Positions 9,356 through 64,000 of a stretch of DNA of 64,000 nucleotides are shown piece by piece. A model generated the notes under the pieces. The model searched no databases. It worked only from the letters and a program-made list of their open reading frames with translations, and was not told where the DNA came from. A program made the translations under genes and the position numbers. How positions within the stretch are numbered: the first letter of the stretch is position 1; each line of letters opens with the position of its first letter. This DNA comes from Mesostigma viride (Eukaryota; Streptophyta; Mesostigmatophyceae; Mesostigmatales; Mesostigmataceae). The stretch spans positions 1,164,501-1,228,500 of the forward strand of contig RPFO01000017.1 of the NCBI GenBank assembly GCA_009746045.1, written 5' to 3'.

Positions 9356-9403
9356 TCCAAATATAAAGGGGCACGGGAATTAGCGATAGCAGAGGGGGCT
9401 CGG

Positions 9404-21118: not shown

Positions 21119-21164
21119 CCCGAGCCCCCTCTGCTATCGCTAATTCCCGTGCCCCTTTATATTT

Positions 21165-35954: not shown

Positions 35955-36059
35955 ATGGGGCCATCGTTGGTGGCTGAACTTACTTGTTGTGTACCAACCG
36001 GAAAGGTGTCCATTCAACCTGCCACTCATGAATTCGTCAGTCGAGCTGCAGTAAGACAA

Positions 36060-40280
<4,221 letters not shown>

Positions 40281-43103
40281 GGCAACCCCTCGTTCAGGAT
40301 TTTTGTGATTGCTGTGGAAAATTTTTGGGGAGTTCCCGGCATGCACGGCTGAAGGGTTGCAATTTATGGAGTGTGCTACCCGAGCTGTGATGAATGGAAG
40401 CTATCATGCATTTCGTCGTAACGACTGGTCAAACCTCTTTACAGGCTTTGAATCCCCCTAGCAAAGGACCTCTTGAGAAATGGGTGTGTAGTTCTGCTCC
40501 AAACCTAGAGTGCACCGAGTCTCTTATCACTACAAAGCTTCCTCTGTACGTGTGCTACTACTTACTGGTGCCTTTTTCACTTACAAAGTAGGTAGTCACT
40601 ATACAGCCATGCAATATTTGTGTCTGGAATCTTAGTCCGAGGATGTTAGACTGATGGTTGCCTGCCAGAGGAGGGGTGCCCCACCAGCCAAATTGGTTGT
40701 TCCGAGGCCGACACTGTCGTCCTGATTTTGGACGGGAGCGTGCACTTTGCTCCTACCAAAACAGGATCTGTCGTCCAGATTTTAGAAAAGGAGGGAGTGC
40801 CAAGGCAAAATTTACAGCTGTTGTCCAAGTGGCTGGGCCGGCGGGAAGAAGCTCCCCGTTTTCTCCGGATTTAATGTCGGCCGTCAGCCAGTTGCATGGG
40901 ATGAGGGGTCCGAGCGACCAGATCATGCAGCACTGTGCAGCTGAATGGCTCTCACATGTCGCTAAGTAGGCCATTGTCAGTATACTGTAGGATCCGACAC
41001 AGATGATAATAATGCAGGGTCGGAACCATGCACTCGCAGCCATTCAGATTGGTTGCCTGCAGGCAGTCACATTCACAAGCTGCCAGGTTACTGCATCGGC
41101 AGTCAAGGATGAGTATAACGTGGTAGAGCATATAGTATATAGATAGTAGAGTCTAGTAGAATCTAGTAGAGTGGTCACTCCATTTACTGTCTGTCGTCCT
41201 AGCTTCTAAACGGCTCGGAGGGAGTGCCCAAATTTGCTAGTGGTTAGCCTAGCTCCTGTCGTCGGCAGTCCGCGGGAAGTGTGCCAGCACCTGGGGTACC
41301 TCACAGTGAGTGGGGCACCCCTCCTCCGGCCAGTTCCCATTTGAAAATGATCAGCCCAACTAATTATATAATTGGAAGTTCTAAACAGTCGGGGTAAAAT
41401 TGGCTCCTTTTTAGCAAATTAGCGGAAGGCGGGGGCCGAGATTAATTATAAGAGGTACCTTAAAATTAAATATGAGGCATGACTCTATCCAGATATATCG
41501 AACACGCGGACAAGATAACGGCAGGCTCGAGCTACCATGGTCCGGATTCTCCCGATTTCTGGCATGCGCTGGTTGTCTCCTTGATATGTTTGGAGGCGAA
41601 TTTTGATTGGCGTGAATGTGTAGTATTGTACGAAAACATGTCTTGAAAGGGTGACGAAAAGTACTGTAAGTTGCGGTAGTGTCGCAGAGACGTTCCTAAG
41701 TGGCAAAATTAAATAAGAGGTATATCCCTGCAGCGGTATCGGTGATTTGAATGGTAGTGAATCGGTGGTACTGCACGACGGTATTGGACGGAGTTCCCGG
41801 TCTGGCAAGCGGATTTTGGATCTCACGTTCAGAAAAGGGCACGGGTATGTACACGACGCGGCGCGACGTTGTGAAATGGCTCGCAGAAAAGGAACCTGGG
41901 CGACTATTTGGCGCCGCGTCGGTCGTGACGTTGTTTGCTCCGTACGTTGGATCTGCATCTACGGCGTTTGTGGGTTGTTTCGAAACCCGGTAGATGAGAT
42001 TTTACGGAGAAGTCGGGTATATAACTGATCCTTTTTGGACCAAGCGGTGAAAATGTAGAAGTCGGAATAAATGAAACGGCCTGACACGTAGTCGTACAAT
42101 ACTACAGCTTAACGCCAATAGAAACCTGCCTCCAAAAATATATCTGGATAGAGGCATGCCTCTTATCTAATTTCAAGGCCGGTACCTCTTAATTAATCTC
42201 GGGCCCCGCCCTCCGCTAATTTGCAAAGTTGCAAATTGGAGACAACCTAGTCGGGGTAAAATGAGTTAGTCTAAACAATTAGAAATGACAATATTCTAGG
42301 GCCAATATGCTAGGGCCTAGGGCTGGAGACTATTGGGTTAATTAGTATAGTGCCCCATACTAATTAACCCAATACCCATCAATCCACGGCATGGATTGAT
42401 TGGCATACGAGCGCTGCATGTGCACGTACTAGTGCGGCCGGCCACGAGGCATAACTCCGCCCTATAAAATGCGAAGTCTGCACGGACGTCTATGTCAAAG
42501 TGGCATGTACATGCACTCATCTAGTGCAGCTATAGGGTTGAGGGATGGTGTATCAAGATCTTGATCCGTGAATCGATGCACGCGTGATCTTTGCTTTGTT
42601 ATTATTTGAGATTATAGCGTATAACATATTCCGAGATATATCATTAACTCGTACAATTACTCCCGGTTATAAAGCTATAGTAGTATCAAGTAAGACAACT
42701 ATGATACGTACAATCGTAGTGCGTACATGAATACGAGGTTCTTTCACTACCCAAGTTATACAGCTCACCTGGGTATTTTGAATCGGCAAGACTGTGCCTA
42801 GAGGACGCCAGTCAAGAAGCGCTTCATCGTGCAAACATTCTGAAACCAAACTACAGCTGCAAGGGACCAGAGAAATGCGGAGATATACTCAACTGGGCAC
42901 ACAAACATGAGGTGGCTAGTACAGGGCGGGAGTGCACACCCACATGTGCACTTGTTCTTTGTACTACCTAAAGCCATTATTCTTTGTTAGTTTCAGTCCT
43001 CGGTATGCACTGCCGGCTAGGCAATCTATCCCATATCAGACCTGACCTCAAGTTGTGAGCCACTTGGCAAATGTGGCCTGGCGTAGGACAAAGGACGGTT
43101 TGT
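40281..43103. other. Convergent intergenic region with inverted-repeat elements
   Basis: 2.8 kb between the stops of the cysteine synthase and the SnoaL-repeat gene. No gene is supported. It holds the Mutator-like candidate at 41,401-42,248. In addition the block GAGGAGGGGTGCCCCAC at about 40,669 recurs inverted at about 41,310, suggesting another small inverted-repeat element of about 650 bp, whose boundaries I could not fix. Confidence 0.5.
41401..42248. mobile_element. Inverted-repeat element with ~100-bp ends, Mutator-like candidate
   Basis: Sequence at 41,412-41,510 (agcaaattagcggaaggcgg, then 'gccgagattaatta', 'agaggtacc', 'ctatccagatata') recurs inverted at 42,140-42,235. A 14-bp direct repeat AGTCGGGGTAAAAT flanks the whole on both sides (41,387-41,400 and 42,249-42,262). 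Long inverted ends with a long target duplication suggest a MULE, whose duplications are usually about 9 bp. The interior has no transposase. Confidence 0.6.
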
Positions 43104-46100
43104 TTATGCCCTTGGGATGGGCCACTTTGGCCCCTTGGCACCCACACTCCACTTTGGCGCATAGCCATTCCTTACGCGTGACTGCGCATCAGGGTGGCGG
43201 GCAAAATGGTGCTTCATGGTCTCAGGAGGCGTGGCTGTCGTCCCATCGGCAACTGCACGGACACGCATGTGACCCACATCAAGGAAATCATCATCGTCAA
43301 TGCGTGCCAAAGTGAGACACACTGGCAGGACAGCCAAACCAAACAGCGAAGTAAAGGGAAGGGGGAGAACATTCGACCAGCCCAGGCTAAACCATTCTCA
43401 TCAATAAATAATTAGGCTAACTTGTGGCACACATGCCTGGACACTGCAAAAACAGCACCTCTATCTAAAGTTGCCATCGGCAATCAGCCGAGAGAAAAAT
43501 CCATTTCAAATGGTGGACACTCACGCAGGAAGACGGAGGAGTTCTTCCCCACGGGCAGCGCGGCGTTGAACACCGGGTTGGCGTCCATGAAGATGCGCAG
43601 CTCGCTGAACTTGCCCGTCGCGGGGTCCACGCGGAAGATGTCGGCGCAGGGCAGCGTCACGGTGGAGCCGTCCGGCCGCCAGTAGGCCACGTCCATCTCC
43701 ACAAAAACGGTGTAGCCCACCTCGTAGATGTTCTTGATCTCGTGGTACACCGCCTGCAGGTAGCTGAACACGTGCACCGCCGAGTCGTAGATCTCTTGCT
43801 TGCTGAGGCAGACCTCGCCGTTGCCAAACTGGTTGGGGTCAAGGCAGGGATAGTTTGGAGGTAACAGCAGAAGAACCGAATAAGGAAATGTCAACCATAG
43901 GGCCTCATACCAGGAATTTGTCTTACTAAAAGCACGCTATACAGGGGACCCATGTTTCAATTTATTAAACTAATATGACCTTCATCAGTTATTCTCCAGT
44001 TGAAGACGATTACGGGTTACAGAATGCTTGACTTCGCTTCTGCCTACCTGGTAGACGGGTGTGTCGGTGAAGAACTCGATGAAGCCGGCCGAGTCGCTCG
44101 CCTCGCCGCGGGAGAAGAGGCGCTTGACCATGTCTGTGTACGTGCCGGGGGCAACCGACGGGAAGGGCTCCGTCGGGTTGGCACCCAGCCCACGCGCGGG
44201 CCGGATGGGCCACTTGGGGCCGCCGTCGGCCACCGACCACCGGGGGGCCTTGCCGGACGCCACCCGCCGCTGGGGAGGGGGAGGGAGGGGGAAGAGAAGA
44301 GAAGGGCAGGAAGGCAGGGGAGTGTGGAGATGTTGGATGCTGGGTGAGCAGGAGATTACATGCATCCACACAAATATTATACTACCTCCGGGCCATTAAA
44401 ATATCTACGAGGGTGGGCCATTAAAATATCTACATATTGGACACTGTGTATGAGGCACTTCCACGGTAATTTATATGGGAATTTTTCAAAGCCCTTCCAT
44501 GTCCTCATACCAAGAGATGTATAGCAAAGACCTATGAAAAAAAATCTGGGTTTGAAATCTGAAATTAGAGGCACCACAAAAAGACACCTAGGGGGGTCAC
44601 CTGGCCCTTGGCTAAATTTGGCACACATGCCCGCGTTAAATTAGTGCAAATGAGAGATAGGGACCGCGTGTGGGATTTGACATCACATCCATGCTGGTGG
44701 CACACTTGGGTATGAGCCCACCAATTTTGGGCCCAATCGCAAAGCGTTTGGGCACATAGAACTGCCATGGTGCACATGGGTATTTTTCAGGGACATTTCA
44801 GTTATATTTTTAATTCACACTTTCAGTTACATGCAGGCTTATAACTTCCTTAAATGAACAGGTCTTTAAGAGCCCTGTTATTGTAGCATCCCCAGACTTG
44901 TGTACAAGAGAGTGGCACCTCTAAAGCCACAGTTGGGGACCATTAACCCATGACTGGCGTAAATAATGCCTACAAAATCATCACAAAAAAGGACCTTCCC
45001 ATGCCCTAAAAACTTGAAAATCTGTGAAATACATTCCTTAAATGGCAATGGGAGAAGCTGCCACACTCAAAATTGGTGCAATACAATGTAGAGAGTCTAA
45101 ATCCCAGCACCCAGCATGTGGGCCTGCAGTTTACTAGGAGAAAAGATGTTCGCATGGGCATGCCCATCTCAGGCCACCAAACATCAACCATTCCACCTGT
45201 GACAAGCGTATGGTTCAAAAAAATGGGCAAAACCACTTCAACCTTAACCCATAGTCCGTATTGCCATTTTTTGCAAACAAATACCCCTGAAAATGAAAAA
45301 AATCATAACTCCCTGACCGCTACTCCAAATACCCTCAACCAAGGTGCTAGGAATATCTACACTTCAAGGGCTTTCAGAATATGCAATAATATCTTGAGTC
45401 CCGTAAGTGGGTTGCATGATATTCTCAGTCAAAGTTGGACAAAAGACGAACATTTTCATGCATCACACCATGGACCCCCCCCCTTTTTTTCAGGGGAGGG
45501 TTGTAAACACCAATGTGAAGGTTGGATAATTTTATTAGGTAGTTCAGGCATCCCCATACCAGGGGGGGCCACTCAGAATTGAGTTTTGCACATGGCACCA
45601 CGCTCATATACGTGTGTGGGTTACGCGCGCGTAGACAGCCATCTATGACATGCAACACAGTAATGCATTATAACAAGCTACAAAAGACTGGCAAAAGTGC
45701 TGGAATGCAAACGGGTTGCCTACCTGAACTAACGGGGTGGTATACTCTAAGGAAATGCCATAAACTGAGCACTCACAGGGCTGATACCACTCTTTACAGC
45801 AGGCATGGAAGCTTGCTAAATGCTGCACCAATAAACTCGTCAACTATAATGCATGGCAGGCGTATTCCGCGGCAAACAACATGCAAACACGTTGCCGTAC
45901 CTGGCTTGATCACGACCTTTCCGGCTTCTGCTGGCCGGGACCCTCATATCTCACACTGGCTAATGCTTTCCAGGCATAGGCCGCCATAGCCGCATAATGA
46001 ATGCATCCGCCATGGTTACCAGGTTGATGTTCTGAGCAAAGATGACCTATAAACGCATCCGAATTCACAGGGACGCTGCTGCGGATGTCCCGTATCAAAA

Positions 46101-49100
46101 CTGGGTGCTCGGGCTGGCGCAGACTGCCGGGCCATAAGAAGAAAATCAAAATATGACATGCCATTACTCATATGGTACTGACGACCAAGAAAGCAGTAAT
46201 TTCCTACCTGTATTTTACCAATGCTATACATCTGGCCACCCCTGACCTACGAAAATCACGCATCATCATTCTGAGCAACATTCTGAACCGTTACAAGCCG
46301 CGAGACGCAAAATTTCCTTGATAACGGCACGCTAGCAGCCATATCTAGTTACGCGCGCGCGCGAGTGAAAATTTCCCGCCAAAGTCACGTGATACTTTCT
46401 CAATACACGTTGTAATTACCAGGCTATGGCGAATATAACACCCAAACCTATGCATCGCCTTCGTCCCTAAGTGTCCCCGGACCCACCGGACACGTGGCAT
46501 CCGCCAGAAGTGGCGCGGCGCCACTGGCGCGGCGCCGTTTTTGGCGGGGAGTCAAATGGTATGTTATAACATACCATTTACGGACTATGGGTTAAAGTGG
46601 CGGCATGTTATTACTAATGACAATTAAACCAGTGCTAAAGGCCGCAAAACCAGTGCTAAAGAAGCACGCTTGGCATGTAAATGAATGCAAACTGTCCTAT
46701 TGCGAGGGCTTTAAGTCACCTTACTACGCTAGTGCAGCTTTCTTGCACCCAATTAGAACCTTGCATCTGCATTTATAGTGGTATAAAGCAGTGGTGTTGC
46801 ACACTATAGAACTTTGCTTGTGTAAATGCTGCCTAGTCATTTGAATGCCAATCCTACTAAGAAACCCATCCAATGTTTTTACCTTCCCATGCTGAGAATT
46901 TTCCTATGGGAAAGTGGGCAGAGGCGAGAGGAAAAGAGTACTAACTTGCCTAGGCTGCCTTGCTGGCATCTTTCCAACAGCATTCTTAAAATGGGCCATC
47001 TGGTTGCTAAAATTGCACGCATTCTCTCACGAACCAGAAAATACTGACGAATTTGCTGCAGCACTCCTACAAAACACTTGCTCATTTTCTAACTTGATCC
47101 ATGACCCTGTACTTCCAGCACCTGCTCATCCATCGGAACTGCACACCTTTTCCACTTTTTGCAGTGTTGTCAAAGCTTAGTAAGATAACCGCATGTCATT
47201 CTCCCCTTTCTTGGCGCTGTCTACCATGTTTGAGAAGCGCGTACCTTTCAGCGATGTGCCGTTTAGTAGGAAGCCGGCCAGCGCCCGCAGTTTCCGCTGC
47301 CATTTTCACACGCAATATCTGCACTGTCGCATTGAAAATCGTTTTATAGTTTCGAAATAACGAGAATACAGATCCCATGCACCGGCGGCTGCGTTTCTAG
47401 CTCAACCATGGCATCGTATGCCTGTCCGCTGAGGTCCCAGCAGCTCTCGGGCTCGCAGCAGCGACCTTGCACTATCTGACCACCGACTTACTCCTCCGCA
47501 GGCGGCCATTTCCCGCCCAGTAAGTTTAAATGCATTGATAAGGAAAACCCATATCGTAGAACATCTTATTACGCAACGAAAACTGCGGAATAAAATATGA
47601 CGCCCAGCAGGCCGCTGCTGCGAAAATCAAGCAAGTACTCAGGTATAACCAACCATTAAAAAAAAGAACCGCTGCACCCCCCCAAACCAGACCAGTTTTC
47701 AGGCGCGAACATGTTTTATCATAAACAAGTATTTTACTAACTCAGCATCGCGTTTAACGCTGGCAAGCATGAACTCCATAGCCATCCCATCGCCAAATTC
47801 GCTTTTTTATGGCCAAACCGCATTCCTCGTCATTTTAGTGAATTTCCTGGTCTGACCGACCTACCCCGAGCATCCGAGATCTGGTACGACCTACTTGTAC
47901 CAACCGAATCATCTGGACGGACAAAATCCTCCGGTTTCTCATTTGCGTTAATTTACCACAGGCACCCCTAAAACGCAATTTTTTGCCACGAGTTTTCTGA
48001 GGTACTTTTCAAGGTACTCCCAATTTCTAATGCTGGCAGCCCTTGGGCCAAAAAAAGTACTTTTCCTACCCTTTAAGAATATCTAGTTTGTTGGGCCACC
48101 CATTTCCTACTTTCCCCACAGTTTCTGTTTGCCCACTACACAAAATTTGAAATTTTGGCAAAAAATGGTATTGTAGATATTTTAATGGCCCGGAGGTAGT
48201 ATAACACCAATACTATGGCGTAGGCTTATGAGACATTCCCAACAAGGGGATGCCTTTTTAACCAAACAGAGGCGCGCCACAAAGCCACCAAGGCTATGCC
48301 CCAGGCAACATGAATGGCTTCCCGATGGCCACATCAATTGTCAACGTCGTGTCAGAATCCACCAACTGCAGGGTTGGGCCATTACCAGCTTTCCCACAGC
48401 CCACCCAAACAATGATGTGAAGTAGGCAGCGGTCCTCTACAAGAACAGACCTAATTGTGTCGAGTGCAGGTGAGCTTGGCAACCCGATCGAGGTGGCACG
48501 CTCAAAGCCCAAATGGGGTGGCAAAGTTAGCCACACGCTGCCAAAAGACAACAGCTAGCCATGCCCTGACGAACGAAAACTGGAAACCGTTAGGGCACGA
48601 TTCGCGGGCATCAAACTTGAACACTGTACTTGACACCAAGGTGCCTACCTGGGCCTCTGGGTGCGTCGCGAAGTGGGTCAGCATGGTCCCTGGCTGGGGG
48701 AGCTTCACACCCCTGGCGCCGGTGAACACCGATGAGTTGGCAGGCACGGGGATGGAGGCGTCAAACACCGGGTTGCAGTCCATGAAGATGCGCAGCTCGC
48801 TGATCTTGTAGCCTGGGGGTTGCACGCATGCGGATGATGAGGAAGACGTTAGCGAAAAAAACGATGTCCTTTTTTTACCCCCCATAACAGGTGTCTCTGA
48901 GACACGGGTTCCCGCATGCGCAGCATCTGCTTGTTCTTGGCAATACATGCGGGCGAAAGTGGGCAGCGCCCCTCCCACCTTCTGGGACAGCAAACAGATG
49001 TTCATGTAGATAGCTGCGCATTTCTCGGCAAGTGCTTATTTCGCTAATAATATCAACACCCCCGCACGGCAGCTGGGCAGACCGCTCACGGTGCACGTAA

Positions 49101-52100
49101 AAACTCCTGCTTGGCTGCGGCCCCAGGAACCAATGCACGATGCCACAGATGCAAAGCTAGCAGAGGAAAAGAGCGGCTACAGGCAGAAGCCCAACCCACT
49201 CATGTGTCAGAAGCGTAACACACTATGTGGCAGAAGCACAACCCACTATGTGGCAGAAGCGTAGTGGCAGAAGCGTAACCCACTATGTGGCAGAAGCGTG
49301 ACCCACTATGTGGCAGAAAGCAGGTAATGTGCTCTCCCATTTGCCCGCGCCTAAACCCATGGGATACCGCAGCAAGTATTAGAGAGACGCCCAGTATCCT
49401 TGGCTTGCGGATAGGGTTGCAGGATGGACAGCAATCTGAGGCAGAGGTGCCCCTGCGCCCAGTTACTCCATGGAAGGAACTAGCTGTAAGGACCTGTGCA
49501 CGCATGCGTGGCGAAGGTGTGCATGGTATGGGTGTCGTGACCATCTTCTCCGCCCCCACCCCCACCCCAACACGCTCACACAAATGTCCCTCTCTTGCCC
49601 ATAGCAGCCTTGAAACACCCATACGCTGACCATTAATTAATTAATTAATTAAACTCGTGCTCCCGTTGGGTAGTCACGGACGCTGACCATGGAGCGACAC
49701 TCCTCCGGTAGCGGCCCCCCCGTAAGCTTCTCGATGCATGCAGATATCTCACGGTATGCACCCACCCTCGAATCGGAAGATATCGAAGCACGGCAGGGTC
49801 ACCAGGGAGCCATCGGGGCGCCTGCAGGAACAGGAGGCATGCATGCCGCGGGATACCCCACACATGTTAGTTTCTTGGGAGGCACACAGCCAGCCTTGTG
49901 GAGATGCACGGGCGTTCCTTGTCACAGCGAATAAACAGTGACGTTGCAGTGACGTTTGAGGGACCACGATGGGGTTGGCTCGGTGGGGCCGCCGCATAGC
50001 CGGCCGCGGCACTGGCTACCATCGCTCGGCACCCACCATGCTCCATGGCCTACGCCACGGTTTCACAATCAGGACCAGCAGGTATGGTGCTATATACTAG
50101 TACTTATAGAACTGGCATGCACCTGGCCGTATCCCACTCTACTCTTGCTCACTGCCATGACTGTACCATACACCTGCCACTGCGCGATGTTAGCTAGTCA
50201 ACGAGATCGTCATCGGTGGCTCATGCAGTGCACGCCAGGAAGGGACCCAGGCTGGGAAGACAATGTGCGAAAGCCATATATTAGCTCACTGTGGGGGGTC
50301 CCAATCGCAACTTAGGGACCGAGAGAAGGGACATCATCCCCATTCGGACAAAGCGACGGCTGGATGAATGGTACGCGGATGCCGGGTGAGCCCACTGTGG
50401 GGTACAACAAAATTCCAGATGACAGTTGACAGAAGACAGATGCCATCCCTACCACAAATGGTATGAGCATAACGCATCATATGAGGTGGCACTACCCACC
50501 AGTAGGCCACGTCCATCTCCACGAAGGCATTCTCACCACCAAGATAACCACACCAACACATGACTTGACTACTTGCACCACGCACCAGTAGGCCACGTCC
50601 ATCTCCACGAAGACATTCCCGTCCACCTCCCACATCTGCTTGATGTCGTGGTAGACCGCGTTGATGTTGGAGAAGAAGTTCTCCGCGCCCCCAAAGATGC
50701 CGTCGTGGGTCAGCGCCACCTCAAAGTTGCCAAACTGGGGGCGGACATGGGCAGCAGTGGCAGCAGTCCAAGAGAAGCCAGGGGTAACACATCAGGGGCT
50801 GTGCAGGGTGAAATCTCGGCGGTGGGAGCAAAACAGAGGGAATGCCACCAAATTAAACGGATGATCTGCCTTCAAGAAACGCCATCAATGCATGCTCGGT
50901 GGCTGGCGTCGCACATGCGGTAGCTTGTGGCCGATGGCCGTTGCTCCTCTGTGGCTGTGATGTCGTTGGCGCAGGTACTCACGTGTGCGCATGCGGGATG
51001 TGTGGATATTTGCATGCTTGACCTAAACAGCTTGGGTGGACTATCATGGATTTAGTACCAATGAAAGGGACCTAACCTGGTAGAGGGCTTGTCTACGAAG
51101 AACTTTTCCACCAACCGCTATAATGACCTTTAAATATTTACAGCGACCCCACCTGGTAGAGCGGCTTGTCGACGAAGAAGGTGATGAAGCCGGCCGAGTC
51201 GTGCGCCTCGCCGCGGGAGAAGAGGCGCCGCACCATGTCTGTGCGCCAACCGGGCTCGCCCTGCAGGGACAGCATCATGGCAGATGACGCGCATGCAGAA
51301 ACCCGCACATTCCTCTCAGGTATCAGGTCGGTGTCTCACAACAACGCTTGGCCAATGCTGCACAAAACAGGGCAGGCATTACTCACAATAACTAAAAATA
51401 ATAGTAATAATGATAATAACAAAAAACATTAGCGGGGAGATGACCCACCAGCCGAGGGATGTGGCAAAAGGGGTAGGCAAGCTCGGAGAAGTGAAGTGTG
51501 AAAGTGGGATCCCCCAACCTGAGTATTAGGCAACGTCTGCTTCGTCTTTTCACTCCTCTGCAGAGACGAAGAGAAATGAAAACCAGGGGAGAGCAACCCA
51601 CAGGAAGGGTACCCTAGGCAGCTCGACTGGGCATTCCGCATCCCCCCCAAGAGCAGGAACCACTCCTTTGGACGGGAGCAGGCAGCACAGCCAATGCTGG
51701 CAAGGCCATGACAGTCGATCGGAGTGAAGAAAATGCCACACGAGGAGCCAGGGCCGGGGGATCCCGTTGTCAAGTAAGCCCGAGGAACATCCGGAACCAA
51801 CAAGACCATGGCAGCTTCTCGAAGCAGGGCGTACACTGACAAAACGCACATGCAGCAGCCCATCTGCAAAATCATCTCAGGCGCTGGACAAACAACCATT
51901 AGAAAGCACTAGTAATACCACACACCGGCGGTGGCCCCGTGAACGAGTTCGGCACCAGGTTGCCGTTGGTCTGCGCTGCAGCAGGGGGCTGCGCCACAAC
52001 CGCAGGCTGCGGCCGCGTGCTGGGCTGAGCCACAATGTTGGGCTGCGACACCGCAGGCTGGGGCCGGACGTTGGGCTGCGACAAAATGTTCCTCGCCGCC

Positions 52101-55100
52101 GCTGCCGCAATCTCCTCCAGCGAGGATGGCACAATGGACGATGGGGCGGATGCCGGCAGGGGGGCAGACGCCTGCCTGCCCGCGGATGGAGCCGGCAGGG
52201 GCCACCTGGGTCCCTTGGCGCCCACGCTCCACTTGGGCGCGTACCCGTCCCGCACGCGCTGCTGGCCATCGGGATGCTCCGCAAAGTGACGCTTCATCGT
52301 GCCGGGGGGGACTGCGGTGCTGCCGTCCGCCACTGCAGGAGCGGTGGGGTGGGGTGGGGTGGGCGGGTGGCCATGGCATCCCATAACAACAAAAAGGGTG
52401 GACAAGTTGCCCAGGCAGAGTTTCATAAGGCTGTACGTGCGGTACAAAGAAAGACAAGGGAGCGAGCGCATCTCACCTGGAAGACCGGAGGACGTGACAC
52501 ACAGAGAGAGCTGATGCCGTACATGGGTTAGCCTTTCGGTTATCAGCGCACAGCAAGGCATGGCTCTGAGCTACCTAATTAGCAGGACACTGTAGGGACA
52601 CTGTAGGGTACTCAGAAGGTACCTTAGTTACAGGTGTGGAGAAAGTAAGTCTGTTTCCTGCCGTTTTTTTTCCCCCAAAACGACAGGACAAGTGCAAGCA
52701 TCAGGGTGAGGCGCAAGCTTGAGCCATACATCCACACGTGCTGCTGGGCTCTTGGCAGCGCCTGGCCATGTCAAGGTTCGACAGCAACAGATAACAAGTT
52801 CAATTACTGACCGTATGCCCTGATGACATAAAACATTTATCATGCCAGGGGTGGTGGTGAATGCACCCTAAGGCACTAACAATGCCCATAAACCCCCTGG
52901 GATCTTTCCGGGCCACCCGAGCATGGGGCCAATTATGCTGGAAGGATACTTGCATTCAGTCATTCAAAGAAAAAAAAAAGCCGGCAGCCACTCACGCAGG
53001 AAGACGGATAGAAATTCATTTCAAATGCTAGCCACTCACGCAGGAAGACGGAGGAGTTCTTCCCCACAGGCAGCGCGGCGTTGAACACCGGGTTGGCGTC
53101 CATGAAGATGCGCAGCTCGCTGAACTTGCCCGTCGCGGGGTCCACGCGGAAGATGTCGGCGCAGGGCAGTGTCACGGTGGAGCCGTCCGGCCGCCAGTAA
53201 GCCACGTCCATCTCCACAAACACGGTGTAGCCCACCTCGTAGATGTTCTTGATCTCATGGTACACCGCCTGCAGGTAGCTGAACACGTGCACCGCTGAGT
53301 CGAAGATCTCCTTCTTCGACAGGCACACCTCGCCGTTGCCAAACTGGGTCGAGGGGGGCGTGGCAGCGGGGTTGAGTGACCGTGGGGTATAGTGACCACG
53401 TCCCATGCACACAGGGACGAAGCAAGAGAAGGATAAAATCAGTAAGGAAAGATGGGCAAATCGAGGACATTGGAAAAAGCAACGAATGCAAATGTTAAGG
53501 AAACCTAAGCCATTGCAGAACGAAGAAATGGGATGCGAGTGAGGACATAGTAAAACTGGAGCATAAATCGGAGGCAACGGGTCAAAGGGATCGTAAGGAG
53601 AGGACGGGGGGAGAAGATCGCTGCCTAGAGGACAAGGGCAGCGGGAGGGGGGCCATTGCCTAGATGACAATGACAGGAGGACTATGAGGACAGTGGAGAT
53701 CAGACAGCGCCCTTCAGGCAGCCTTTCCCACTCAGCACAGTTGTTATGCCATCACTTGGCACGATATCCCTGCAGAAGGTTTGCAGGTGTGCCAGATGGA
53801 GGGTCCCAAGTCCCGGTCGGCCGCCCTCCTCCCTTTCCCTTCTGACTACCTGGTACACAACTCCCTTGCCATCCCCTTGATTCTGGCGTACATATCGCAG
53901 CCCCCACCCGGAATCATCCCCCACGCCACCACCTGATGGATCGGCTTGCCTGATGGATCGGCTTGCCTGATGGATCGGCTTGCCTGATGGATCGGCTTGC
54001 CTGATGGATCGGCTTGCCTGATGGATCGGCTTGCCTGGTAGACGGGGTAGACGGGCGTGTCGATGAACAGCTGGAAGGCATGTGGACCGCCGAGGCAACC
54101 TTCAATCACAAGTAGCGGCCACCCACCTGGTAGACGGGCGTGTCATTGAAGAACTCGATGAAGCCGGCCGAGTCGCTCGCCTCGCCGCGGGAGAAGAGGC
54201 GCTTGACCATGTCCGTGTACGTGCCGGGGGCAACCGAGGGGAAAGGCTCCGTCGGGTTGCCACCCAGCCCACGCGCGGCCCGGATGGGCCACTTGGGGCC
54301 GCCGTCGGCCACCGACCACCGGGGGGCCTTGCCGGACGCCACACGCCGCTGGGGGGGGGGGGGGGGACGAAGGGAGACAAAGGGGGGAAACGGGGGAGGC
54401 GGGGGAGGCGGGGAAAGCAGGGGAAGCGGGGGAAGCAGGGGAAGCGGGGGAAGCGGGGGAAGCAGGGGAAGCGGGGGAAGCGGGGGAAGCGGGGAGAAAA
54501 ACCGCGTGAGTACAGAGAGCGGTCAGGGATGCGAAAGAGCGGGGGGCGGGGGCAGTGGGAAACTGGTAAGGTTACGCACGGTGTGATGATGGTGTGGGTG
54601 ACTAGTGATAGCATTAGGTAGCAAATGGGAGGAAAGACTTCTAAAGATGACAAAACAAGGTATTGTGGGTCAATGATCGTACGAGAGGGACAGACGGGAC
54701 GTCAGCAAGCCCGCTAAGCATGTGTCGTTATAATCAATTACTTGACTGTTTCATTACAAAGCAAGCAATGGAAGGTGGCTTGTGGGCTACATAAATCAGC
54801 ATCCAAGAACGTACAAGAGCGTACAAGAGCGTAACAAAACGACCAAGGAAAATACTGCACACTCATTTAGCCTACCCAGTCCTGCAAAGGATTGCAACAA
54901 GCCCCTACCTGCCTCTACCATAACCACAACAGGCGACCTAACGACCTACCTGGGCCTCTGGGTGTGTCGCGAAATGCGTCAGCATGGTCCCCGGCTGGGG
55001 CAGACGCACACCGCGGGGTCCGGTGAACACCGATGAGTTGGCGGGCACAGGGATGGAGGCGTCAAACACCGGGTTGCAGTCCATGAAGATGCGTAGCTCG

Positions 55101-58100
55101 CTGATCTTGTAGCCTGGGGGGGTGCAGGCAAGATGCGATCCGAGATGCCAGTAATGGAAAGAGAGGTGAGTCCGACCTGCAGCAGAAAAGACCTGGAAGC
55201 AATTTGACCCATTTCTATGATTAAGAAAACTTCACTCTTAGGGAGCCAACGTGGCCTTACTTCTTCACAGAGCACCACCTCTACGAGCACTGAAACTGGA
55301 AACCGTATGCCACCAGTTTAACAGCCAGCACAGGCATGACATGGCGAGGCTGCGTATCCCATGTATCACGCCACGCCTGCCTCTGTCATAGCGCACTGTA
55401 CGTCGAATCATTCGCGGCACTCTGTAATTAACACTTCAGCAAGCTTGAGCAACAACCAGGGGTCGAGCCAAGGCCCCTGCGTCCAGGACATGCAGGACAG
55501 GAAAACACAGGTCATTGAATAGGTCGGCAGGGGACCGGCGGTGGAGACCAATCATAGACATAACCAGGAGATAGACATAGCCAGGAGATAGACATAGCCA
55601 GGAGATAGACATAGACAGGATCTGCGAGGGCAGCTTCTTTCCCGGATGTAGAGAGATAACCAGACGCACCCTCGAATCGGAAGATGTCGAAGCATGGCAG
55701 CGTCACCAGGGAGCCGTCGGGGCGCCTGCGAGGAATGCAGCGGCACAGACGCCATCGCAACAAGCAAGCACAAAGCATGTCAGCTCAAATGATGGGTATT
55801 CTCCTTGCCACGCAGTGGGCGGTTTCCTGGGCCCACACCTGACACCACCCCTTGGTGGTTGGTGGGTGGGGGGGAGGGGGGTGGGGGGTGGGGGGAGGGG
55901 GGAAGAACGTGGAAAGGGGGGCACTGCTGCATGTGTGTCTGTGTGGGTACGCATGCAAAAGTGCAGGTGTGCAAGTACAAGGGAGAGGAAATCCACTCGT
56001 GAATACGACCACAACTAGCAAACCATCACAGCAAACCATCAGAGAAAGACCAGAACTGTCACAGACCCACTTGCCATTCCGCATACATTGGAAGGGCATA
56101 ACAAGGGCAGGTTGCGGCCCTTAGCATCTTGTTGCGTTTGACCATCCCGTCCCCACCTGATGTCACAGCTATTTCTCGAACTTCAATGTACCATGCTTCG
56201 TAGGCCAATGCCTCCCCACATATACACCAGGCATTTCATCCCCCCCGTCAGCCACGGATGATCGCATCTGTGGTCCCGATGGCCGCACGCACCCCACACG
56301 TAATGCGATCTACGCTGCACGCCCACAGCTATCGCCCCACCCCCCACATGCACGTCACTAGGGCCCGCGGGAACAGCAGGGAAAGAACATCGGCACTTGC
56401 GCACACACCTGTAGGCCAGTAGGCCATCTCCACAAACTCTCTCTCATCCCCATGGTGCCACACCGACACATGATAGCTGAGTTTACTACTTGCACCACGC
56501 ACCAGTAGGCCACGTCCATCTCCACGAAGACATTTCCGTCCACCTCCCACATCTGCTTGATGTCGTGGTAGACCGCGTTGATGTTGGAGAAGAAGTTCTC
56601 CGCGCCCCCGAAGATGCCGTCATGGGTCAGCGCCACCTCAAAGTTGCCAAACTGGCATGTGCGGTAGGCAGTGGTAGTGGCGGTGAAAAAGGGAAGCCAA
56701 GGGAAAGCAGTGAGCGCCGCCCCAAGTGCCCAGACTGGGGGCCCAAGCAAAAGTGTACCGTCCAGCCGATTTGTTATACTGGCGAGCGGCACAGGCGGAG
56801 ATGGTGAACACAATGCCATGCAGATCCCGGGATAAACTGGACACTCCTGGAATCCACGCTGGAGGCATTCCATGGTGAGCCGTACCAGGCGCACACACAT
56901 GCGGCGCTTTTGAAAACAATGCACGGCCAACTTATGCCCTCATAAAAAGACAACTTACTCAGATGACGCAGCGCCGGCATGAGGAGCAGACCAATTCACA
57001 CAAACCTCTTGTGCGGACCGATACAACGACCTCTGTGTACTGATCATGTCCCCAGCTGGGAGAGCACCTTGTGTACAAAGAATTATTGTACCGACCCCTA
57101 TAATGACCTTTTCATTCACAGCAACCCCACCTGGTAAAGTGGCTTGTCGACGAAGAAGGTGATGAAGCCGGCCGAGTCGTGCGCCTCGCCGCGGGAGAAG
57201 AGGCGCCGCACCATGTCCGTGCGCCAACCGGGCTCGCCCTGCACGCGTCAGATAACATGGCAGGGCATCACAAAAGCAGCTCAGGTCAAATGCCAGCAGT
57301 CACGTCCAGAAGCACGGCATGGGTTGCATGCTGCTAGTGTGCAAGGGCTGGCCTTCCGCCGACTTGTTGTCGTGCTGTGTGAACACAACAATCATCCCCA
57401 GGGTGCGCTGGGATGTGAGCTGGGTGTAAGACACGTGCAACTCCTCTTTCTGAGTCCCTGCATCACCTCCTATAATACCACCTCCTATAACCTATAACCT
57501 ATAACCTATAACCTATAATATCACCTCCTATAATACCACCTCCTATAACCTATAATATCACCTTCTATAATACCACCTCCTATAACCTATAACCTATAAC
57601 CTATAATATCACCTCCTATAACCTATAACCTATAACCTATAATATCACCTTCTATAATACCACCTCCTATAACCTATAACCTATAACCTATAACCTATAA
57701 TATCACCTTCTATAATACCACCTCCTATAACCTATAACCTATAACCTATAATATCACCTTCTATAATACCACCTCCTATAACCTATAACCTATAACCTAT
57801 AATATCACCTTCTATAATACCACCTCCTATAACCTATAACCTATAACCTATAATATCACCTCCTATAACCTATAACATATAACCTATAATACCACCTCCT
57901 ATAACCTATAACCTATAACCTATAACCTATAACCTATAACCTATAACCTATAACCTATAACCTATAACCTATAACCTATAACCTATAACCTATAACCTAT
58001 AACCTATAACCTATAACCTATAACCTATAACCTATAACCTATAACCTATAACCTATAACCTATAACCTATAACCTATAACCTATAACCTATAACCTATAA

Positions 58101-61100
58101 CCTATAACCTATAACCTATAACCTATAACCTATAACCTATAACCTATAACCTATAACCTATAACCTATAACCTATAACCTATAACCTATAACCTATAACC
58201 TATAACCTATAACCTATAACCTATAACCTATAACCTATAACCTATAACCTATAACCTATAACCTATAACCTATAACCTATAACCTATAACCTATAACCTA
58301 TAACCTATAACCTATAACCTATAACCTATAACCTATAACCTATAACCTATAACCTATAACCTATAACCTATAACCTATAACCTATAACCTATAACCTATA
58401 ACCTATAACCTATAACCTATAACCTATAACCTATAACCTATAACCTATAACCTATAACCTATAACCTATAACCTATAACCTATAACCTATAACCTATAAC
58501 CTATAACCTATAACCTATAACCTATAACCTATAACCTATAACCTATAACCTATAACCTATAACCTATAACCTATAACCTATAACCTATAACCTATAACCT
58601 ATAACCTATAACCTATAACCTATAACCTATAACCTATAACCTATAACCTATAACCTATAACCTATAACCTATAACCTATAACCTATAACCTATAACCTAT
58701 AACCGATAACCTATAATATCACCTTCTATAACACCCTGTACGTGCAAAAATCGTCATCAGATTCCAAACACAGGTGCGCGCATCAACCGTGTATGCTTGC
58801 TGCCTCTCCCCCTTCCCACCCTCCCACGCATTCTTCAATTTCAATGCAAATGCCATACCCCTCCGGACGCCATCAAGAGTCCCCTGGCAAGCTAAAAGTG
58901 AGAGGCCGCATGGCAGTACCTACCGGTGGTGGTCCGGAGAAGACGCTGGGCGTCAAGTTGGGTTGAGAGACGATCGTCTTCGATGCCGCAGCGATCGGTG
59001 CAGAGGGAGCTGCCGACCAGCCTCCTGTGGACGTGGATGTCGCCGGCAGGGGCCACCTGGGTCCCTTGGTGGCCACGCTCCACTTGGGCGCGTAACCGTC
59101 CCGCACGCGCTGCCGGCCGTCGGGATGCTCCGCAAAGTGGCGCTTCATCGTGCTGGGGGGGACTGCAGTGCTGCCATCCGCCACTGCAGGGGGGCGGGGG
59201 GGGCCATGGCAACAAGCATGCCAGCATAAAAAAAGAAACAGAAAGCCAGAGTCAACATATTTTCTTCTGAAAGTACAGTGCATACAGAGAGAGAACAGAC
59301 TCAATACCAGTGGCAAGTACATGCTACCCAACATAACCATGACCAAAGTATCCCGGTTCGCACGGCAGCTTCCTGCTAACGTCATCGTAATCTGCTATCT
59401 TTTTCAAGGCAGCCCCTGCCCATGGTAAGTGGCAACGGAAAAGGCAAGCCACTGGCATCCGCAAAGTAGCGCAGTAAAGGGCATCAGTCGTCGCTTCAGG
59501 GGGCCACTCACGCAGGAAGACGGAGAGAAATTCATTTCAAATGGTGGACACTCACGCAGGAAGACGGAGGAGTTCTTCCCCACAGGCAGCGCGGCGTTGA
59601 ACACCGGGTTGGCGTCCATGAAGATGCGCAGCTCGCTGAACTTGCCCGTTGCGGGGTCCACGCGGAAGATGTCGGCGCAGGGCAGCGTCACGGTGGAGCC
59701 GTCTGGCCGCCAGTAGGCCACGTCCATCTCCACAAACACGGTGTAGCCCACCTCGTAGATGTTCTTGATCTCATGGTACACCGCCTGCAGGTAGCTGAAC
59801 ACGTGCACCGCCGAGTCGAAGATCTCCTTCTTCGACAGGCACACCTCGCCGTTGCCAAACTGGACAAGAATCAAACAGGAGCACGCCAGCAAGAAAAGAG
59901 GGTAGATAAAGATGCAGGCATCAGTTTAAGGGCTGATGCCCAAGGGACGCCTGGCCCAAGGGACGTGCCCGAGCGATCCAAACCGTGGTGGCTTCAAGCC
60001 TGCCTATGCATACTGGTACAACTGGCACCTGGGAAGGAGAACACTAGAGGTCATTCTTACTCCACTGCGCCTTATCCCAAGTGCCACTGAGCTCAATCAT
60101 CTGACTCACACTGCTTTACTGCGCCTCTGCAAGCACGTGCCACCACATCGACTATAAAAATAATTACCCTTAAAAATCCCATGACTACCCCTAATTAGAT
60201 GTGTAGGGGAGTGGAATCCGAGGTCTTGACCGTACCACCGGAATGTGACTGGGCAAGCACCAGACATTTGTGCCTTGGAAACACTCCCATCAACATAATG
60301 AGGTAGGTACACAGGCATACAGTTAAGGGGAAGCGAGGGCTTAGTTGTGAAAAGGGGGGGGGGGGGGGGGGGTGCACCAGCTGGCTAACAAAACTGTCTT
60401 ATGGAAGATATGGAAGGATCGCCTCAGTCCCTTCCCAACTGGCATTTGAACCATCATCGCTGCACCCCTACCTGGTAGACGGGCGTGTCATTGAAGAACT
60501 CGATGAAGCCGGCCGAGTCGCTCGCCTCGCCGCGGGAGAAGAGGCGCTTGACCATGTCTGTGTACGTGCCGGGGGCAACCGACGGGAAGGGCTCCGTCGG
60601 GTTGGCACCCAGCCCACGCGCGGGCCGGATGCGCCACTTAGGGCCGCCGTCGGCCACCGACCACCGGGGGGCCTTGCCGGACGCCACACGCCGCTGGGGT
60701 ACATGGAAAGGGGCCGGTTGCGTCCATCCGAAGGTGAGGGGGGGGGCAGCAGGAGGGGGTGTAAGGTTGGGCGAGGCAGAACGCCCATGCCATGTGCCCA
60801 GATGCGAGCGATGGCAGAGCCAGATTGGTTAGGGTGGAGGCCAGGCTCTGCCTGGAAAGGTGGCCGTGATCCTTGGGCATCGCACCATCGAGAAACGGGG
60901 GAAAGCGAGTACTCCGCCACTTCTTTACCCTACCCTATCACCCACCCTGGGGTTGTGGGTGAACACTGGGGTATGCCCCTAAAAATCCTCAGGCTCCGGG
61001 ACAGGCCTTTATATTCTCCAATCCGGCGCCTCTAAATGCGTTCCAAGCCTGTCTGTGGGCTCTGGACCATGGGGCAGCCTTAATTATTGCATCCGCCACG

Positions 61101-62912
61101 CTTTTGCTATGCCGAAGCTTTATTGCACCCACAGTTGCGCCCGCACCATGATGCGGAGAGAGCGCTCTGTGGCCTGCCCACTTGGGGCAGTGAGAAAAGC
61201 TAGGACGCCCTCCCTCCTCATCGTGTATAGGGGCTGAAGGCGCCTTTATTGGTACCCACGTGACGCAGTCTACGTGATGATTAACAAACAAATTAATCAT
61301 CCACCCACCATGCCCTTCTTTCCCCTACCCTATCACCCACCCACCCTGCCCTACTTTACCCTACAGGATCACCCACGGCCCACCCACCCACCCACCCACC
61401 CACCCACCCACCCACCCACCCACCCACCCACCCACCCACCCACCCACCCACCCACCCACCCACCCACCCACCCACCCACCTCTCCTACCCTTCTTCACCC
61501 TACCCTATCACCAAATAAATATATCATACCATCGACGTAATGAGCTTCACACTCTCTGTCATACCCACAACAGGTGGCCCTGTCACCTACCTGGGCCTCT
61601 GGGTGCGTCGCGAAGTGCGTCAGCATGGTCCCTGGCTGGGGCAGACGCACACCGCGGGGTCCGGTGAATACCGATGAGTTGGCGGGCACAGGGATGGAGG
61701 CGTCGAACACCGGGTTGCAGTCCATGAAGATGCGGAGCTCGCTGATCTTGTAGCCTGGGAGAGGCGAGTGCGAGGAAAGAAGAGAAAAACCTTAGTGAGA
61801 GTAGGAACACAGGTGGTTCCAGGTGTTACCTGATGGTGGTGATGGCACACGGTCGCATGGGCAGCTGCTGCCACTTTGGCAGGCAACCAGTTTCCAATTC
61901 TTCCGGACCCACAAGCAAGCCATGGAGAATGGAGGTTGCTTATGAATCTCACGAACGCCGCCACACCTAGTTGCATGGCGCTCCACGGAGTTGCTTCCTT
62001 TCCAACAATGTCCCAAAAATACCATTTCAGGAAGATTTTAACAATGGTCCCTTAACCTCCGCTGGCAAGGTGGCGGCGTAACCTGACGGCAGCTGGCCAA
62101 CTGAGGACTAAACCAGCTGAAGCAGCGGAAACTGGAGGTGTTCGCAGAATGTAAGATATCCGCCCCACCCACCCTCGAACCGGAAGATGTCGAAGCACGG
62201 CAGGGTCACCAGGGAGCCATCGGGGCGCCTGCGGGGACGCAGCAGCAAGCACAGACGCCATTTGGACAAAAGGGAGCCGGAGTTGAGGGAAGGTAAATGG
62301 CTAGTTTTAGTATGAAGCATGCGCATTACCAGCAGTCCTGCTCCTCCCCCCCGAAGTGCATATATAGCAATTAGACATCAAGGAACATCACATATGAACA
62401 GGAGATAGCTATTTTGGCCAATCATCACAAGGAGAGGATTGTGACAGCTCCACAAGGCAGTGCAATGTTGCTGTTGTTGCACGCAACCAGTAGGCCACGC
62501 CCATCTCCACGAACACTTTGCCACCACCTAGATGCCACACCGACACATGATAGCTGAGTTGACTACTTGCACCACGCACCAGTAGGCCACGTCCATCTCC
62601 ACGAACACTTTGCCACCACCAAGATGCCACACCGACACATGATAGCTGAGTTGACTACTTGCACCACGCCCCAGTAGGCCACGTCCATCTCCACGAACAC
62701 TTTGCCACCACCAAGATGCCACACCAACACATGATAGCCGAGTTGACTACTTGCACCACGCACCAGTAGGCCACGTCCATCTCCACGAACACGTTCCCGT
62801 CCACCTCCCACATCTGCTTGATGTCGTGGTAGACTGCGTTGATGTTGGAGAAGAAGTTCTCCGCGCCCCCGAAGATGCCGTCATGGGTCAGCGCCACCTC
62901 AAAGTTGCCAAA
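43104..62912 (-). CDS. Multi-SnoaL-domain protein, 3' part of a gene built from a repeated exon cassette
   Basis: Twenty exons with GT-AG introns join in one frame of 1,238 codons plus TAA (43,104-43,106); the 5' part lies beyond the window. Exons in order: 62,912-62,764; 62,228-62,173; 61,754-61,591; 60,693-60,472; 59,859-59,556; 59,183-58,924; 57,238-57,131; 56,651-56,503; 55,725-55,670; 55,113-54,950; 54,348-54,127; 53,343-53,040; 52,332-51,926; 51,260-51,153; 50,734-50,586; 49,821-49,766; 48,812-48,649; 44,269-44,048; 43,828-43,525; 43,252-43,104. They encode six SnoaL-like (NTF2-fold) domains in alternating alpha and beta types. Each has the alpha-helical start, 'VEMDVAYWRPDGS', 'LPC.DIFR' and 'SELRIFMD.NPVF', the usual cone-fold pattern. 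The fold occurs in cyclases, isomerases and binding proteins; no specific activity can be assigned. No signal peptide is visible because the start is missing. Confidence 0.85.
44382..48199. mobile_element. Mariner-like element (3.8 kb) in intron D1/E1
   Basis: Perfect 27-bp terminal inverted repeats beginning CTACCTCCGGGCCATTAAAA, flanked by TA (or TATA) on both sides. Without it the intron would be about 560 bp, close to the 601 bp of the same intron in cassette 2. The ends recall Tc1/mariner and Stowaway elements (CTCCCTCC...). I find no DDE transposase among its open frames, so it appears non-autonomous although large. A 26-bp perfect palindrome lies inside at 46,554-46,579. Confidence 0.78.
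49200..49325 (+). repeat. 22-bp tandem repeat in intron C1/D1
   Basis: Five units, one shortened, of a 'cactatgtggcagaagcgta' repeat. No counterpart in the same introns of cassettes 2 and 3. Confidence 0.85.
49634..49682 (-). mobile_element. Truncated non-LTR 3' end with ATTA tail in intron C1/D1
   Basis: TTAATTAATTAATTAAT followed by 'aactcgtgctcccgttgggt', the same terminal block as at 19.4 and 30.1 kb, truncated after some 30 bp. Confidence 0.55.
50498..50585 (-). repeat. Duplicated 3' end of exon B1 with splice donor
   Basis: A second copy of the last ~30 bp of exon B (minus strand, encoding 'VEMDVAYW') with its donor and following intron sequence, immediately downstream of the real exon end at 50,586. 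A more degenerate equivalent lies at 56,414-56,502 in cassette 2. Confidence 0.75.
53935..54085 (-). repeat. 17-bp array adjoining a duplicated exon E2 end
   Basis: Six to seven copies of TGATGGATCGGCTTGCC, then at 54,036-54,085 (minus strand) a second version of the exon E 3' end encoding 'LFIDTPVYPVYQ', followed by GC instead of the GT of the true donor at 54,126. The array seems to have grown from the intron start next to this copy. Confidence 0.75.
54349..54495 (+). repeat. Poly-G and 9-bp G-rich array at intron D2/E2
   Basis: Starts with a run of about 15 G directly at the exon E2 acceptor (a C-rich polypyrimidine tract on the coding strand), then degenerate GGGGGAAGC units to 54,495. 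Confidence 0.85.
57466..58731 (+). repeat. CCTATAA heptamer array in intron G3/A2
   Basis: From about 57,895 to 58,712 the heptamer CCTATAA repeats without interruption, roughly 117 copies. 57,466-57,895 is a higher-order array mixing short heptamer runs with 'tatcacctcctataatacca' segments. It makes up most of a 1,685-bp intron. It differs from known plant or algal telomere repeats. Confidence 0.92.
59505..59555 (-). repeat. Duplicated exon F3 end with splice donor
   Basis: The last 16 bp of exon F and its GTGAGTG donor recur 46 bp downstream (59,505-59,525). The same duplication exists in cassette 2 (52,990-53,008 against 53,035-53,053) but not in cassette 1, so it predates the split of cassettes 2 and 3. 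Either donor could in principle be used. Confidence 0.75.
60353..60372 (+). repeat. Poly-G tract in intron E3/F3
   Basis: A run of about 20 G, a likely slippage site, within the intron between exons E3 and F3. Confidence 0.85.
61380..61482 (+). repeat. (CCCA)n microsatellite in intron D3/E3
   Basis: About 25 uninterrupted CCCA units. On the coding strand it is (TGGG)n, which can form quadruplexes. Absent from the same introns of the other cassettes. Confidence 0.92.
62486..62763 (-). repeat. Three extra 92-bp copies of exon B3 end plus donor
   Basis: Starting at 62,486, 62,578 and 62,670, each copy carries about 35 bp of the exon B 3' end ('VEMDVAYW' with donor GTGCGTGG) followed by the same intron stretch, spaced 92 bp and running into the real exon B3 at 62,764. 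Cassettes 1 and 2 have one extra copy each. Confidence 0.85.
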
Positions 62913-63559: not shown

Positions 63560-64000
63560 CCACACGTGGTAGAGCAGCTTATGGGCGTATACCTCTTCTG
63601 CGGACCGCTATGGTGACCATTGCGTCACTATAGCGGTCACTATTGTGTCACGATTTTGACAACTGTGGCCCCACCTGGTGGGGCGGTTTATCGACGAAGA
63701 CTTGTTGTACCAGCCGCTATAATGACCTTTATTTAGTTATGGTTACCCCACCTGGTAGAGCGGCTTGTCTACGAATAACTGTTGTACCAGCCGCTATAAT
63801 GACCTTTACTGAGTTATGGTGACCCCACCTGGTAGAGCGGCTTGTCTACAAATAACTATTGTACCAACCGCTATAATGACCTTTATTGAGTTATGGTGAC
63901 CCCACCTGGTAGAGCGGCTTGTCTACAAATAACTATTGTACCAACCGCTATAATGACCTTTATTTAGTTATGGTGACCCCACCTGGTAGAGCGGCTTGTA
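63560..64000 (-). repeat. 78-bp tandem array of exon A ends with donors
   Basis: Five units from about 63,669 (starts near 63,669, 63,747, 63,825, 63,900 and 63,978), spaced 75-78 bp. On the minus strand each encodes 'VDKPLYQ' followed by a GTGGGG donor and the same intron stretch containing 'ggtcattatagcggttggta'. A degenerate unit sits near 63,560. Single older copies precede exons A1 (51,075) and A2 (57,055). The last unit runs off the window. Confidence 0.85.

Follow-up and report, generated by a model that had tools for sequence, protein, structure and literature searches.

The green alga Mesostigma viride, which stands close to the base of the land-plant lineage, carries what appears to be a single gene in which a seven-exon cassette is repeated in frame to build a chain of alternating alpha and beta SnoaL_2 modules. 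The gene lies on the minus strand (43104-62912) of the window, meaning the whole 64,000-nt stretch of DNA analysed here, and its 20 exons join into a single open frame of 3,717 nt, corresponding to 1,238 codons and a stop. Our overall account, which we hold with moderate confidence, is that of one nuclear gene for a probably plastid-targeted SnoaL_2 chain that would act as a multi-site enzyme or as a scaffold.

Exons A to F have exactly the same lengths in every cassette where they are present (108, 149, 56, 164, 222 and 304 nt) and are each bordered by AG and GT, with exons B to F found in all three cassettes and exon A in two by a minus-strand exon search (Table 1). Exon G differs in length between the cassettes. 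All 19 introns, which range from 219 to 4,379 nt, begin with GT and end with CAG, and the G+C content of the exons is 0.65. The alpha module is formed by exons A to D and the start of E; the rest of E, exon F and the start of G form the beta module. Across the 20 joined exons there is no internal stop, and the cassettes meet in phase 0: the stop codon is found in the last cassette only, while exon G of cassette 3 and that of cassette 2 each run up to a donor site and continue in frame into the next exon A. The initial annotation had described identical exon lengths and a cassette with phase-0 ends whose repetition preserves the frame, and both descriptions are exact. Its count of at least six domains in one chain stands as six modules in one frame, five of which are complete within the window; the first alpha is a cut module because its exon A, which would lie to the right, is absent from the window.

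Table 1. Exons of the SnoaL_2 chain gene and repeat features of the window (positions are those of the window)
Feature	Position	Strand	Basis or remark
Cassette 3 exon B, 149 nt	62764..62912	-	exon search
Cassette 3 exon C, 56 nt	62173..62228	-	exon search
Cassette 3 exon D, 164 nt	61591..61754	-	exon search
Cassette 3 exon E, 222 nt	60472..60693	-	exon search
Cassette 3 exon F, 304 nt	59556..59859	-	exon search
Cassette 3 exon G, 260 nt, module tail and linker	58924..59183	-	exon search, joined frame
Cassette 2 exon A, 108 nt	57131..57238	-	exon search
Cassette 2 exon B	56503..56651	-	exon search
Cassette 2 exon C	55670..55725	-	exon search
Cassette 2 exon D	54950..55113	-	exon search
Cassette 2 exon E	54127..54348	-	exon search
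Cassette 2 exon F	53040..53343	-	exon search
Cassette 2 exon G, 407 nt, with a long linker rich in Pro/Ala/Gln	51926..52332	-	linker absent from P0121
Cassette 1 exon A	51153..51260	-	exon search
Cassette 1 exon B	50586..50734	-	exon search
Cassette 1 exon C	49766..49821	-	exon search
Cassette 1 exon D	48649..48812	-	exon search
Cassette 1 exon E	44048..44269	-	exon search
Cassette 1 exon F	43525..43828	-	exon search
Cassette 1 exon G, 149 nt including TAA stop, last coding exon	43104..43252	-	C-terminus same in P0121
92-nt tandem copies of exon B 3′ end and donor, in intron after the real exon	62487..62798	-	repeat scan, donor search
Six donor-like copies of exon A end, 4 of 5 spacings 77 nt	63566..64000	-	repeat scan, donor search
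Inverted duplication, 1,746 nt	11927-13672 and 31270-33015		
Inverted duplication, 945 nt	7581-8525 and 22347-23291		
Inverted duplication, 670 nt	8951-9620 and 20903-21572		

A Pfam profile search of one window cassette finds SnoaL_2 (PF12680) in two stretches (E 2.7e-15, 57.2 bits against a cut-off of 27), in agreement with the SnoaL-type assignment first proposed; NCBIfam holds no family for the chain, and Rfam returns nothing at gathering scores. Modules are about 185 residues long, with a SnoaL_2 domain first and then a helical tail of some 50 residues that includes the conserved motif APKWSV..GPKWP. The five complete window modules carry the residues of the PKW..GPkW tail of the cyanobacterial EthD-SnoaL_2 family, and M526, G543, P546 and W548 are invariant in an alignment of 42 sequences. 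Predicted structures of two algal relatives described below (P0002 and P0122) show an NTF2 cone with tail helices. Their best PDB matches are limonene epoxide hydrolase (LEH), ketosteroid isomerase (KSI) and other NTF2-fold structures; the VIA-align rows fall mostly on residues 271-397 of P0002, with the first module barely covered and families missing there not excluded. The P0122 model has a pTM of 0.47, and the packing of modules against each other is not fixed by the models.

As a reference for conservation, we used the 67 of 185 alignment columns, many of them polar, that are invariant in a seven-module algal seed. All 67 residues are present in the five complete window modules, by construction in the alpha and beta of cassette 2, which are seed members, and also in the beta of cassette 3 and both modules of cassette 1, which are outside the seed but near-copies of it. 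Further afield, a module from Microcoleaceae keeps 66 of 67.

Public gene models extend the picture beyond the window. A search with the 1,238 residues retrieves P0121, the Mesostigma viride gene model Mv12522-RA.2 (1,342 aa), which contains six modules and in which SnoaL_2 is found in six stretches (138.1 bits), and P0122, the Chlorokybus model Chlat1/3675 (1,163 aa), which contains four modules in the order alpha-beta-alpha-beta. Neither model carries a functional name in the search output. P0121 is a model of the same gene, in which window cassette 3 (385 aa, counted from exon B) and window cassette 1 (383 aa) both occur without a single difference and side by side. It differs from the window gene in two respects: it has an upstream alpha-beta pair and an N-terminus, and it is without the 470 aa of cassette 2, including three strings specific to that cassette. 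The exact cassette 3 to cassette 1 junction in P0121 is ambiguous, as cassettes 2 and 1 share their first 136 residues. In the upstream pair, the alpha (residues 93-274) keeps 51 of the 67 seed residues and lacks 16, and the adjoining beta lacks one, keeping 66. With cassette 2 added to P0121, the full protein would have about 8 modules and about 1,812 residues. P0122 has only two alpha-beta pairs and, unlike P0121, a 370-residue N-terminal part. Mesostigma has a further protein, P0002, whose first module is full and whose second is decayed, with 31 of the 67 residues kept and the tail lost.

These models bear directly on how the cassettes are expressed. Three separate tandem genes of one cassette each, their phases matching by chance, would be in keeping with units that have phase 0 at both ends and with introns between G and A (665 and 1,685 nt) of ordinary size for this gene. 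However, only the last cassette has a stop, and the public model joins three cassettes in one protein, just as four modules are joined in one protein in Chlorokybus, so we regard three genes as very improbable. The single long chain of the initial annotation is upheld by P0121 and P0122: because of these two models, we consider a single protein much more probable than three genes, and the alternating order of modules appears older than the split of the two algae. The number of cassettes in the protein might be variable, either because a block is skipped in some transcripts or because strains differ through unequal recombination, giving 6 or 8 modules. A phase-0 block could be skipped in frame, and the exact adjacency of cassettes 3 and 1 in P0121, without the strings specific to cassette 2, is what such a process would leave. 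However, at 91-98% identity, cassettes 2 and 1 could have been collapsed by short-read assembly of either genome or transcripts, and should Mesvir1 correspond, as we infer, to the annotation of Wang et al., it drew on transcripts assembled with Bridger (PMC7027972). Full-length isoform sequencing of Mesostigma by PacBio, with cDNA fractions above 3 kb, is described by Liang et al. (2019). We consider variable cassette number a serious but doubtful alternative to one chain of fixed length.

Divergence among the copies within the chain is uneven between exons and introns. In exons B to F, codon differences between cassettes are mostly synonymous (synonymous to non-synonymous 23:3 for cassettes 3 and 2, 27:6 for 3 and 1, 31:7 for 2 and 1), with dN/dS values of 0.037, 0.107 and 0.101, respectively; selection on the cassettes is purifying. 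Together with the kept invariant residues, the low dN/dS indicates that selection guards each copy. Exon identity between cassettes is 91-98%, at a dS of 0.12-0.18, and the same range of identity is found for exons A to F of cassettes 2 and 1. Comparisons of matching introns (100 shuffles per comparison, 50 for G-A) give likeness above all shuffles in 7 of 17 cases, always within about the first 200 nt past the donor, and none in the other 10, which include all C-D and E-F introns. In blastn alignments, homology ends 4-7 nt outside the exon for exon E (cassette 3 against 2 and against 1) and exon D (3 against 1), and extends 30-90 nt beyond the exon after A, B and F and on one side of D and E. 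Because synonymous differences are in excess in the exons while the C-D and E-F introns are dissimilar, the likeness of the cassettes is not due to chance.

At a dS of only 0.12-0.18, unconstrained introns would be expected to be still alignable; either very fast intron turnover or homogenisation of the exons accounts for their unlikeness. Repeats account for 30.1% of Mesostigma intron space (PMC6947507). Concerted evolution confined to exons, through short-tract or cDNA-templated conversion, together with a changing cassette copy number, would fit the combination of like exons and unlike introns as well as the uneven identity in the first pair of P0121, where the beta is 98% identical to that of cassette 2 and the alpha 62%; module number would then be tuned by gain, loss or skipping. 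We judge this combination unlikely. Codon bias was rejected as the whole cause of the exon likeness: codon identity at identical residues is 0.62-0.70 between alpha and beta, where 0.61 is expected, and 0.79-0.93 between cassettes, above the expectation from codon usage. This excess gives no account of the lost intron likeness.

Some introns contain copies of exon ends. Four of the 19 hold copies of the donor 20-mer of their own exon with at most 4 mismatches (shuffle mean 0.000): two after exon B of cassette 3 and one each after exon F of cassettes 3 and 2 and exon B of cassette 1, at sites including 59512, 52996 and 50500. No acceptor copies are found in the 19 introns. The donor-like copies at the right end of the window presumably follow exon A of cassette 3, which would itself be outside the window. 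Such copies are a possible source of alternative donors.

Three protein searches, each scoring at most about 8,000 candidates, gave 155, 94 and 178 matches, of which 120, 94 and 120 were listed; among the matches listed, a eukaryotic (eukprot) label is found only on P0002, P0121 and P0122. When a full module is defined by a score above 120 (our choice, with fragments from short contigs included), 268 of the 287 fetched proteins have a single one and 16 have two; of the remaining three, one carries four, another six and the last none. Among these 287, more than two full modules are found only in the two algal chains, and the 16 proteins with a tandem pair of this module are cyanobacterial or come from metagenomes. 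Among the five best-scoring prokaryotic matches, module identity reaches 69% for alpha and 65% for beta, both with P0136 from Microcoleaceae, and the alpha domain without its tail reaches 72% identity to a prokaryotic match.

An unrooted tree was built from 69 modules, 17 algal and 52 prokaryotic, the latter reduced at 78% identity from 218 modules (score above 200, length at least 140); 73 proteins fetched in a later search were left out of it. All algal modules are on one side of a branch (98/91). Within them, the Mesostigma betas group with Chlorokybus modules 2 and 4 (99/93), and the Mesostigma alphas with P0002 module 1 and Chlorokybus modules 1 and 3 (93/52, weak by SH-aLRT); the branch leading to the first P0121 module is long (0.77). 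As the alpha and beta clades each span both algae, the alpha-beta pair is probably older than the split between Mesostigma and Chlorokybus. Boundary A|B (..PLYQ|FGNFEV) and boundary E|F (..PVYQ|FGNGEV) coincide in residue and phase, and this match at YQ|FGN suggests copying of alpha and beta after the gain of an intron, in a nuclear genome. Inheritance of the pair from cyanobacteria is unsupported, given that cyanobacterial tandem modules fall on the prokaryotic side and that alpha and beta share an intron position. A viral origin was likewise set aside: a scan of viral contigs gave 66 pattern matches and no relative, and among viral model structures the best match, with 9% identity, is a polyketide-cyclase-like protein of a giant virus.

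A scan of prokaryotic genomes with two short patterns, which is no census, confirmed 34 of 87 pattern matches in 27 loci, all from cyanobacteria. The open reading frame families that recur in these loci are EthD (19), short carboxymuconolactone decarboxylase (CMD; 14), DJ-1/PfpI (13), N-acylglucosamine epimerase-like (12), short-chain dehydrogenase (12), isoamylase (11), STAS (10) and DUF4432 (8), with the Pfam names tested on one member of each family. Absence from a locus counts for little, because contig ends cut many of them. Genes resembling those of the icfG operon are found near the SnoaL relatives in 10-14 of the 27 loci. In Synechocystis, slr1854 is the DJ-1 gene. An epimerase, an anti-sigma antagonist, a glycogen enzyme and IcfG are named among Synechocystis slr1852-1862 (PMC8670252), slr1853 is a carboxymuconolactone decarboxylase (PMC3479031), and the icfG operon is linked to carbon regulation (PMC12329169). 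The N-terminal part of the Chlorokybus protein has matches in 18 of the 27 loci (32-37% identity, E down to 5e-37), either at the end of a 513-539-residue EthD protein or as a stand-alone protein of 188-250 residues. Pfam has no family for the stand-alone form in the Microcystis locus L024 (L024:7760-8326), which has counterparts in 17 other loci. The Chlorokybus fusion with a domain from this neighbourhood links the algal chain to the cluster in cyanobacteria beyond the likeness of the SnoaL modules.

Several cyanobacterial proteins come close to the algal architecture. The EthD-SnoaL_2-SnoaL_2 proteins (P0123-P0135, of which the named ones are cyanobacterial, and a Microcystis protein of L024) resemble the algal chain in having two full tandem modules with the PKW..GP.W tail, and P0123 keeps 59 of 67 seed residues in both modules. 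They differ in having EthD ahead of the modules and two modules only; EthD itself has no match up to E 0.1 in P0121, P0122 or P0002. Their modules group with the prokaryotic ones in the tree, which makes this duplication a separate event from that into alpha and beta. The cyanobacterial Nif11/EthD/VOC/AtaL-SnoaL_2 fusions have one full module, that of P0136 being 69% identical to alpha with 66 of 67 seed residues, and differ from the algal chain in their fusion partners and in a second, distant SnoaL-type domain without a tail (19 of 67 in P0136). The closest solved folds are those of the polyether epoxide hydrolases Lsd19, which has two such domains in one chain, and MonBI-MonBII, and of limonene epoxide hydrolase and ketosteroid isomerase; identity is low (8-22% in the listed LEH, KSI and polyether-hydrolase rows), and the likeness is one of fold.

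On this basis, we propose that an ancestor of Mesostigma and Chlorokybus acquired a module of cyanobacterial type, the direction of transfer being our reading of the relationships. This module would then have acquired an intron between two codons, at YQ|FGN, and been duplicated into alpha and beta, after which the pair, as seven exons with phase 0 at both ends, would have been copied in tandem, each copy lengthening the protein with the frame intact. NTF2-fold domains often pair, and alpha and beta may pair within the chain. Its substrate may be the same small substrate as that of the cyanobacterial SnoaL/EthD/CMD cluster. Our best guess is a multi-site plastid enzyme, or else a binding scaffold or carrier, with alpha facing beta; the proposal draws on the five complete window copies, which keep the invariant residues of the family, and its catalytic part is tentative, falling somewhat short of an even chance. 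N-terminal composition fits a putative plastid location: acidic residues make up 1-3% of the N-terminal 70-88 residues in P0121, P0122 and P0002, against 10-12% in the rest, and Ser/Thr, Arg/Lys and Ala are enriched there, modestly so in P0121.

The modules may instead be structural spacers or pure binding domains without catalysis, repeated for avidity or for oligomer building. The NTF2-like superfamily has both catalytic and non-catalytic versions (PMC3924330), and in a diatom iota-carbonic anhydrase (iota-CA), the repeats are non-equivalent, with domains 1 and 2 forming the oligomer core (PMC8395977). However, 67 invariant columns out of 185, nearly all kept in a cyanobacterial module, exceed the needs of a spacer, and decay in P0121 is limited to its first module. 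We consider a role without catalysis possible, though on the unlikely side. An iota-type carbonic anhydrase is also conceivable from the fold, as the Bigelowiella iota-CA (7c5x) ranks fifth in Foldseek against the Chlorokybus model, and from the icfG-operon-type genes near the relatives, given the carbon link of that operon (PMC12329169). But the TM-scores of 7c5x are low (0.10/0.21 over 620 columns), iota-CA is absent among the listed sequence-search matches to solved structures, and the HHSS motif is found neither in the window protein nor in any of the 287 fetched homologues, P0121, P0122 and P0002 included. Missing this motif, the chain was rejected as an iota-CA, an identity that we regard as barely credible. 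The SnoaL_2 chain as multi-site enzyme or scaffold remains our preferred reading.

Repetition of NTF2-like domains as such has precedents. The iota-CA domains (COG4337/COG4875) are single in prokaryotes and often repeated, up to five times, in eukaryotes (PMC8132391), and one algal iota-CA has been shown in the plastid stroma (PMC8132391, PMC8395977). These proteins share with the algal chain the repeated domains, but belong to another sequence family. The suggestion that no protein of this arrangement had been described was too broad: the alternating chain is already public in the predicted gene models of two algae, tandem module pairs occur among the fetched proteins, and repeated NTF2-fold iota-CAs are described in the same papers. 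Repeated NTF2-fold plastid proteins are a known kind; what is new is to find the SnoaL family as a chain, and one built from cassettes. In the open-licence literature, we found no paper naming both Mesostigma viride and SnoaL, none combining SnoaL, EthD and cyanobacteria, and no SnoaL among the top 8 of 147 matches on streptophytes or Chlorokybus.

The seven-exon cassette is a clear case of symmetric-phase exon duplication, in which every copy adds two domains. A cyanobacterial-type module and a domain of the same cyanobacterial neighbourhood would have ended up in chains of deep-branching streptophyte algae, and the chain in turn places a so far uncharacterised cluster of cyanobacterial genes, located near icfG-type ones, in context. 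The parallel to iota-CAs raises the testable question of why algal plastids favour strings of NTF2-fold domains.

The rest of the window has features of its own. The window contains no N and has long simple-sequence arrays, which suggests a long-read assembly such as that of strain NIES-296 (PMC6947507), and a CCTATAA-type tandem repeat of about 1.2 kb (57460-58720) occupies part of the intron between cassettes 3 and 2. To the left of the SnoaL gene there are three inverted duplications, whose arms are 96-99% complementary (Table 1). Tail to tail with the SnoaL gene lies a spliced gene of the PALP family on the plus strand (about 36000-40300), with PF00291 in two exons, which by eye looks like a putative plastid cysteine synthase.
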